Source: Mya arenaria | Taxonomy: Eukaryota; Mollusca; Bivalvia; Myida; Myidae | Direction: 5' to 3' | Assembly: GCF_026914265.1 (NCBI RefSeq) | Contig: NC_069123.1 | Location: forward strand, 55,563,411-55,627,410 | Length of the DNA stretch: 64,000 nt | Part shown: positions 38,101-41,100 of the stretch, one piece after another | Numbering within the stretch: position 1 is the first letter of the stretch | Layout: every line of letters starts with the position of its first letter | Notes under the pieces: model-generated | What the model was told of the DNA's origin: nothing | The model's input: only the letters and a program-made list of their open reading frames with translations | Database searches by the model: none | Program-made: the position numbers and the translations under genes

Positions 38101-41100
38101 TTTTTGTCAATCACTGAAAGAAAATTAACGAGCATGGCCTTTGCCAAATATATGCATTACACAAAGTGTTTTGAGCATAGAAGACTAGTTTAAAAGCCAT
38201 ACATTATAATAGTGTTGTGCCGATGATCGACTATAATCGACAATTGATCGGAAAGGCCTACGTCGACGACAATCGATAGTGAAATTTGAACACTCGATTA
38301 TAGAAACAAGGGACATAACCGCTACCAACTAATTTACTTATTTCTGGTTAATGCTAGTTTATGTTGAAATGTTAAGGTGTTACTGTGTTAAGTTATGTAC
38401 TTATATTCTTATCAAGTCAATAAGTCACTACAGTACCTTATTACAAATTTTCTTTGTAATTTAACTGCTAAAGGATTGGTTCTCAAGTTCTCATGTTTGT
38501 GGTTTAAAAATGAATTTTAAAACATGTTACCGTTAACTTCTATATATATAACCATGTAAGAATTTAGTTTTCTCAGTTTTCTGAAAGAAATTGTTCCTGT
38601 AAAACAGAAACTGTTCTTGTAAAACACATAGAATATTGAACTGCTTGTTATACTTGTTACTGACTAATTATTAACAAGAAATTGTTATCTTTCTTTGTGT
38701 TTATTTTACACATGTATACAATATTAAATGTAAGACAATAATTAGAGCCTGTGGTCTGATGTTCTGTAATAGTAACTTGTAAACATTAAAAGATTTTTGC
38801 TTTCTGAACAAAAAATGTAATTTATATAAAGAAATCTGCAAACAATATTGTAAGAGAACAATGGTGCTTAAAATGCACTGTATCTGTTTGCCTTAAATAT
38901 GATGAGGAAAGATAATCAAATAATAATTAAATCGATTAATAATCGATCATTGATCGGTTTCATAAACTGATTATCAATAGTAATTTTTTTGCTTGCTGAG
39001 TAAATGAAAAGAAAACACACAAACAGAGGAGTGTTGGTACTGGTATTTGCCCTGTGACACTCTCCTTTAATCTGATATTTTAACAACAAAAGAACATTTA
39101 TGTAATTAGCCAGTACAAGCGTAGTCAAATATGTGTTTTTGTCATATATTTAAAGTGTTCACATACGCTGTTGTTTGCAGTTAACAGTCCTGCAGGGTGA
39201 CATTGTGAAGGTTACAGCTGATGCCATCGTTCATCCCACAAGCAGCAACTTCTACATGGGTGGTGAAGTGGGTAAGGTTAAACTTCAATGTTATTCTATT
39301 TAAGTTGTTTCTATTATGGTTTTTCAAAAGAGGAAACCTAAACAGTGATTATGTGCAGAACTCATAACAAAAATAGTTTACTGTATGTCTATAGCCATAG
39401 TGATGCACTACAAAAGTTGATTACGGTAACTATATGAAAGTCCGACAAAGTGGTTAAATAGAAAAAGTAAATCAAGACTATCAGTTTAATCAAGACTATC
39501 AGTTCATATTTACTACTGAATTGTATGTCAGGGTCTGCACTAAAGAAAGCTGGTGGGAATGAGTTCCAGGACGAGATCAAGGCTCTACAGTCATCTCACG
39601 GCAGCCTTGATGTCTCTGAAGGTACGATATGCTCACATGTCGCTGGTTGGGTAGGTCCGGAGTGTTTTCATTTCATTTAGATATGGTTCAACTTTTGTAA
39701 AAGTATATATAAGGCTATAAGAATGTTTAAATGATTTAAATATGTTTGAATTACTTTATTGACTGTTCACATTAATAGGATAGACTAAGCCATGTAATTG
39801 AAGACTGATAATGAATAAGTTACAAATATATAAACTGTTTTTTAAGGATTTTAAATATTTACTGTTGTGTCAATATGATTCAAAGCCATTACTAGGCCAA
39901 AAATTTGGCCTAGTGTGTCTCTGTAAGTACCCGTACATTTTATGAATAGTATATATAGAAATGTTTTCTTTTTATAAAATGTCCCAAGAATACTTTTAAT
40001 AAATATTTCAGCTGCCATATGTCCTGGAAAAAATTTTGCAGCTAAGTTTGTAATCCATGTAAACAGCCCGGGCTGGGGATCTACCAATTGTCAGCAGGCG
40101 CTTGACACAGCTGTTAAAAATGTTCTTAAACTGGCAGAGGAGAAAAATCTCAAGTCTGTAGCCCTGCCATCTATAAGCAGTGGGAAGTAAGTGTAGATGT
40201 GAAGGTGATTGGTACATATATACAGATAATGGCCAGCAGTGCATTTTCAAAGAAATGCACTTTTAGCCTGTGTACACATTTTATACCAAGTCATACTATA
40301 GATAACATGTATAGTGTGTTTTGGTAAGCATGAACATTTTTCATGCTGTCTTTAGGCTTCCAATTTCGATGAAAAGTGCTGCTGGCTATTCAGTTACATC
40401 ATCATCTTTTTCTTGAAGGCATATCTCATAATCATCTCCCTCCTTGCTTTATTTCATGTGATCAGTGGCAATCTGTCCTGGGCGTAATTTCCTCCCAGCC
40501 AAGTATGTGATACACTGTAATAGTCCACAGTGGAGTGCTACGAACCCACAAGAGCTTTTAGATAAGACTGTGAAAAATATACTGACATTAGCAGACAAGC
40601 ATGACCTTAGGAGCGTAGCTCTTCCATCTATTGGAAGTGGCCGGTAGGTGCTGGTTCTCTCAGATCTTTAGTTAAATGCAGCATGTTCATTCACCTGAAA
40701 CAAATGGATATAATCATGGTTGTCAATATTTGAAAATGTGCATTAACTTACCTGTAATCAGTGACATTATAATAAGTAAGGGCTCTGATTTTTCTGAAAA
40801 TTAATTATTTTACTAAACAGCCTTCCCCTGACAACGATTCTGCTGCCTATGCTTTATAAAATCATTGAAACCCTGCTGCCTTGCACTTTTCCATCATAAG
40901 CATGCTGTCTCATGTTTGATTTTGTATCTATGCTGGATCAGTGAATGTCATGTGACGTATGTAAACCTCTAGTTATTTTTCATACAATCTATCAGATTTC
41001 TGTGTATGATATTGAAGTTAATTGATGTGCTTTATATATAAAATTGATATTATTATACACTATTGACAACATATAGCATACACATGTACATTATTCACTT

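Follow-up and report, generated by a model that had tools for sequence, protein, structure and literature searches.

The macroH2A macrodomain ties chromatin to NAD metabolism, and splice isoforms of macroH2A are, within the parts of the literature consulted, described for vertebrate macroH2A1 only. The locus studied here, in the bivalve Mya arenaria, raises the question of whether another animal lineage has built a splice switch into the same domain at a different place. The initial annotation of the window (the whole 64,000-nt stretch analysed, positions 55,563,411 to 55,627,410 of contig NC_069123.1) held that two adjacent exons of a macroH2A gene encode alternative versions of one macrodomain segment, and that a full protein results only when one of them is included without the other. 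Our analyses suggest that these exons, 7a and 7b, are very probably an old tandem duplication within what seems to be the sole macroH2A gene of this genome, used as mutually exclusive exons. Judging from the gene structure, the clam probably makes two versions of the macroH2A domain that reads ADP-ribose.

A macroH2A gene whose coding region is complete lies on the + strand of the window (35155–41387), with eight coding positions, the seventh of which is present twice, and with GT-AG introns throughout. Its features are the following.

35155–35326, + strand: coding exon 1, histone fold; weak Pfam Histone match, 20.1 bits against a cut-off of 26.4 (scanned as 35155–35325)
36329–36435, + strand: exon 2, histone fold; weak Pfam Histone match, 20.7 bits, below the cut-off (open frame 36325–36513 scanned)
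36618–36866, + strand: exon 3, H2A C-terminus and basic linker; single genome match
37331–37429, + strand: exon 4, end of the linker and start of the macrodomain (marked by a 14-residue stretch)
39181–39271, + strand: exon 5, counterpart of the vertebrate 1.1/1.2 exon, 1.1-like (GGEVG, Gly224 equivalent), single
39532–39621, + strand: exon 6, single, leaving in phase 1
40012–40186, + strand: exon 7a, first alternative, 175 nt, human residues 257–315, loop SISSGN
40187–40465, + strand: 279-nt intron separating 7a and 7b
40466–40643, + strand: exon 7b, second alternative, 178 nt, loop SIGSGR, one residue more than 7a
40485–40487, + strand: stop codon reached when 7a and 7b are included jointly, 156 nt before the end of 7b
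41225–41387, + strand: exon 8, common to both forms, with the stop codon at 41385–41387

The spliced open reading frame encodes 381 aa in the 7a form and 382 aa in the 7b form and ends in LQRLDA. An H2A fold, a linker and a C-terminal macrodomain, the combination that defines the macroH2A family, lie in one protein, although the histone-fold exons, when scanned apart, fall below the Histone cut-off. Both forms carry full Macro domains (Pfam Macro, 110.4 bits for the 7a form and 105.5 bits for the 7b form), the Histone_H2A_C profile matches at 46.9 bits, and the best matches among solved structures are macroH2A1 chains (233.5 bits for the 7b form, 227.9 bits for the 7a form). The Mya arenaria genome seems to hold no other macroH2A gene.

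Translation of the splice combinations bore out the coordinates, lengths, phases and frames proposed for the two exons, as well as the claim that joint inclusion or joint skipping breaks the frame. Each exon begins in phase 1 and ends in phase 2, and either one alone yields an open protein. When 7a is joined to 7b, the message reads SSGNGNLSWA and then meets a stop, six codons into 7b. When both are skipped, exon 8 is read in the wrong frame for 83 codons without an early stop, ending at 41473–41475 (open frame 41194–41475), beyond the normal stop, provided that exon 8 is the last exon. By the usual rule, a stop codon lying far upstream of a splice junction predicts nonsense-mediated decay, and because the stop of the joint product lies 156 nt before such a junction, that product would be expected to decay. 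Thus, each macroH2A transcript would take one of the two exons: the joint message would be degraded, and the message with neither would be shifted in frame. The pair displays the features by which mutually exclusive exons are recognized, being adjacent and internal, similar in sequence and length, identical in phase, open, and bounded by GT-AG sites. Candidates for such exons were chosen in much the same way in a human survey, as neighbouring exons of similar sequence, shared reading frame and similar length, and that survey counts decay brought about by a frame shift among its classes of regulation (PMC5740500). The clam pair resembles this class as there described in its adjacent, similar internal exons with the same phases and a 3-nt length difference, in the frame shift caused by joint inclusion, and in its location inside a folded domain; for the clam pair, the splicing is predicted from genomic sequence.

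How exclusivity might be enforced was examined in the introns and splice sites. Steric exclusion operates up to an intron length of about 50–60 nt, and the 279 nt between 7a and 7b are far above this limit; incompatible splice sites are likewise rejected as a device, all sites being of the GT-AG type. Competing RNA pairing among the three introns did not exceed a Markov null, in which 15 of 48, 13 of 23 and 26 of 35 null pairs reached the observed energy. A device for physical exclusion, which some mutually exclusive exons possess and which is not required, was thus not found in the clam pair. Since neither RNA pairing nor a steric device was found and all sites are GT-AG, the frame/decay class remains, and we infer that exclusivity rests on the reading frame, plus possible further factors. 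Motifs of known splicing regulators were also counted in the three introns around 7a and 7b, where QKI and RBFOX motifs number 0 and PTB-like motifs 1. Against a local density of 8.4 per kb, MBNL-type YGCY motifs number 2, 4 and 9; for CELF-type motifs the counts are 7, 3 and 2 and the local density 6.4 per kb. The nine YGCY motifs in the 581-nt intron after 7b are nearly twice the background and the seven CELF-type motifs in the 390-nt intron before 7a more than twice the local level; these two excesses are plain counts and are not used as evidence.

The splice sites had been called good at both exons, which holds for the GT-AG dinucleotides and for the donors, ranking at the 98.0 and 99.8 percentile of all GT in 35–42 kb, but is generous for 7a. 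No acceptor of the gene is weaker than that of 7a, which ranks at the 56.0 percentile of the AG dinucleotides in 35–42 kb, where the other seven lie between 77.8 and 98.5. Such a weak acceptor would fit a scheme in which 7a is subject to regulation and 7b is taken by default. Under the reading that we favour, both exons would be spliced in and the choice between them would be regulated, with 7b perhaps as the default.

The two exons are clearly related and clearly diverged. The count of 37 identical residues out of 59, originally made by eye, proved exact, and the alignment of the two peptides has one gap, owing to the extra residue in 7b, with 46 positive positions and a BLOSUM62 score of 188, where none of 2000 shuffles exceeded 21 (z 21). 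At the nucleotide level, third codon positions agree at 21 of 59 sites, the same codon is used for only 12 of the 37 common residues, and 5 of 17 four-fold sites are identical. The nonsynonymous distance is 0.31 by NG86, for which dS is not computable because of saturation; the maximum-likelihood estimate is 0.27, with a dS of 26 that means no more than ‘saturated’. In a simple neutral simulation started from 7b (500 runs per level), 0.8–1.2 substitutions per site reduced mean amino-acid identity to 0.22–0.14 and left the frame open in 10–8% of runs, while third positions agreed at 0.40–0.50, more than is observed. With human macroH2A1.1 as outgroup, 26 of the 59 ungapped columns are common to all three sequences, 11 to 7a and 7b only, 6 to 7a and human only and 10 to 7b and human only, and 6 agree in none. 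Unique changes number 10 in 7a and 6 in 7b, a rate difference with p 0.45 in what is, with 16 changes, a weak test. Because the silent sites are saturated while dN is 0.31, and because neither copy is significantly faster, both copies appear to be old and kept by selection; that purifying selection has acted on the two for so long speaks for the use of each.

Among the alternatives, the one that survives best holds that a single copy is spliced in, the other (most likely 7a) being a relic that is silent or in decay. The poor rank of the 7a acceptor is in its favour, as is the fact that 7a is less like human macroH2A1.1 (32/59 identical) than is 7b, which stands equally far from 7a and from the human protein (37/59 in each case). 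Yet 7a has remained open, with its splice sites and frame kept, over a time long enough to saturate silent sites; its form scores higher than the 7b form on the Macro profile, and it lacks a significant rate excess. We therefore consider a relic improbable.

The duplication can be dated only as old, because the ratio of the 7a–7b distance to the clam–human distance (0.83, 95% interval 0.50–1.28) and the constrained trees leave the possible orders of events unseparated. The tree that joins 7a with 7b is better than its two alternatives by 0.8 and 1.3 log-likelihood units, with a bootstrap of 43 on the key branch, and is compatible with duplication either in the clam's own lineage or before the split from vertebrates. 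The proposal that the switch evolved independently of the vertebrate one is thus favoured by the best tree and, with margins this narrow, unproven.

What the two exons would change in the protein can be read from the human macrodomain. Exon 7 corresponds by alignment to human residues 257–315, with numbering set by Ser275 (which we take to lie in the ADP-ribose pocket) and giving Gly312, Ser313, Gly314 and Arg315; on this alignment, it is the exon for the other loop of the pocket, opposite the loop-1 segment. According to PMC5770377, the substitutions G224E and G314E abolish binding of PAR by macroH2A1.1. The position of Gly224 falls in clam exon 5 and that of Gly314 in exon 7, and the equivalents of Gly224, Ser275 and Gly314 are kept in both clam forms. 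The loop is SISSGNAG in the 7a form and SIGSGRAG in the 7b form, differing at 312 (S/G) and 315 (N/R); 21 further columns differ, the extra 7b residue included, 11 of them in the segment 283–302. Since position 312 is occupied in other macrodomains by serine (L004, L020, L021) or by glycine (L011, L012, L022), neither clam loop looks dead. Most likely, both forms would bind ligands of the ADP-ribose type, with different strength, selectivity or surface partners. The two proteins would have the histone fold, linker, loop 1 and C-terminus in common and would differ in two places, the centre of the macrodomain and the loop by which macroH2A1.1 holds the distal portion of ADP-ribose. They would be expected to bind ligands with different affinity or to choose different partners, not to divide into a binder and a non-binder.

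The vertebrate macroH2A1.1/1.2 pair is the closest known system, belonging to the same gene family and macrodomain, and there too the choice of exon alters residues around the ADP-ribose pocket. It had been claimed that the vertebrate switch involves a different exon, and indeed the human 1.1 and 1.2 chains differ, over the aligned macrodomain, only in the segment of clam exon 5. The vertebrate pair is the loop-1 segment (the Gly224 region), with 1.2 unable to bind, whereas the clam pair lies two coding exons further on and forms the loop around human 312–315; unlike 1.2, neither clam copy carries, as far as its residues tell, an obvious loss-of-binding change. Clam exon 5 is 58% identical to the human 1.1 exon and has one close genome match. 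In a search of the window, the human 1.2 exon hit exon 5 (E 0.83) and otherwise nothing above noise (best E 0.31), so that no 1.2-like exon was found there and the loop-1 segment is, within the window, not the alternative exon. In vertebrate macroH2A2, too, the macrodomain takes another form, its phosphate-binding loop being altered by two proline insertions (PMC8232725), but macroH2A2 is a separate gene and not a splice form, and the change described for it is one of inserted prolines, unlike the substitutions of the clam pair.

The differences between 7a and 7b also bear on the possibility that the pair chiefly tunes the amount of macroH2A, joint inclusion (as a poison product) or joint skipping being its functional outcome and the two proteins being little different. 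Joint inclusion does give a stop 156 nt before the splice junction, and the differences between the exons avoid Ser275 and Gly314. A plain poison exon, however, would not need some 58 conserved codons in both copies, and here 23 of the 60 alignment columns differ while both copies are constrained. We judge this explanation very improbable, more so than a relic, and return to mutually exclusive use.

The exons of the gene were also placed in the genome as a whole, in a search that covered exons 3, 5, 6, 7a and 7b and in which match counts are lower bounds. Exon 7a has at least eight matches at E up to 0.001: itself, 7b and six others on C12 and C4. The last six are 41–52% identical, against 64% for 7b, and one of them has an internal stop, so that an origin of 7a from another macrodomain gene is rejected. 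Exon 7b has at least eight matches at E up to 1, namely itself, 7a and six weak ones (E 0.007 or worse). Exon 3 has at least one genome match among the best candidates scored, and exons 5 and 6 have one each, with seven others at E 0.02 or worse (at least nine matches). The window contains no third copy of exon 7. A lone 7a beside a lone 7b, in a gene whose exons 3, 5 and 6 also match just once, makes a paralogue or an uncollapsed haplotype very unlikely. An assembly artefact (two haplotypes set one after the other, for example) or a duplication of recent date might come to mind in view of the high heterozygosity of bivalves mentioned in PMC10663159, but can practically be dismissed, as 69 of 177 aligned bases differ, far beyond allelic difference, and exons 3, 5 and 6 have no second copy.

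A bolder reading of the mutually exclusive pair, which is possible though we would not expect it, is that of an ancient switch, common to molluscs or to all lophotrochozoans (or of still earlier origin, with loss in vertebrates), in which the loop-2 wall of the pocket is exchanged. If so, two animal lineages would splice opposite sides of the same pocket, loop 2 in one and loop 1 in vertebrates, to tune which NAD-derived ligand is read. Any second, differently placed switch would mean that diversification of the pocket has been favoured more than once. It would also provide natural loop-2 variants for comparison, and it would be wrong to regard invertebrate macroH2A as one protein; work that takes one transcript per histone gene, a choice stated in PMC12153100, would miss the switch. 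Public RNA-seq of Mya arenaria exists for six tissues and for isolates of its transmissible cancer (PMC10663159, PMC11978232). A figure legend of PMC5550673 indicates that the intron/exon composition of macroH2A varies in Crassostrea. In the open-licence literature consulted, which does not include the main molluscan macroH2A paper, we found no report of an alternative macrodomain exon in an invertebrate macroH2A, and prior notice is possible. Rivera-Casas 2016 reportedly treats macroH2A beyond vertebrates, a 2021 paper is said to deal with macroH2A evolution, and a 2009 paper reportedly concerns macrodomain histones and PARP1.

Pattern scans of a collection of viral contigs and of one of genome contigs returned no macroH2A, as expected since neither includes animals. 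Of two scans of the viral contigs, one gave a weak macrodomain match (41% across some 40 residues) and the other gave none; the genome contigs gave three bacterial macrodomains. One of the macrodomains encountered, from Sarcina (L021:8001–8480), is very close to 7b over 14 residues, a likeness that is partly by construction, as the search pattern covered that stretch. Elsewhere in the clam genome, at least five loci (L004–L007, L009) with a closely similar macrodomain exon lie within half a megabase on C12 (39.87–40.34 Mb), and at the one place followed beyond the exon (L019) a long open frame lies just upstream. The C12 loci look like a tandem array of PARP14-like genes, the name being inferred. 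Downstream of macroH2A, at 46344–47750, there is a tandem array of eight copies of a unit of about 181 bases, and by eye seemingly the same repeat, translated, occurs beside a C12 macrodomain locus (L019:77–825).

Upstream of the gene, the region 935–18320 holds many − strand open frames, among seven of which scanned there were one Sushi, one ephrin-receptor-like and one EGF match, the last below the Pfam cut-off; the region probably represents one or more large extracellular genes. Near a Sushi exon, at 16253–16404, a perfect 30-base repeat of 5.1 copies lies in a − strand open frame (GVCINIANYC repeated) and may vary in length between individuals. Another − strand open frame, at 23872–24174, has a C-type lectin match slightly under the Pfam cut-off (22.2 versus 22.6 bits). 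Finally, the mitochondrial contig, recognized by eye from the mitochondrial genes in its first 10,000 bases, opens (L017:1–1752) with what seems by eye to be a cox1-like frame whose conserved start region is preceded by a long N-terminal extension.
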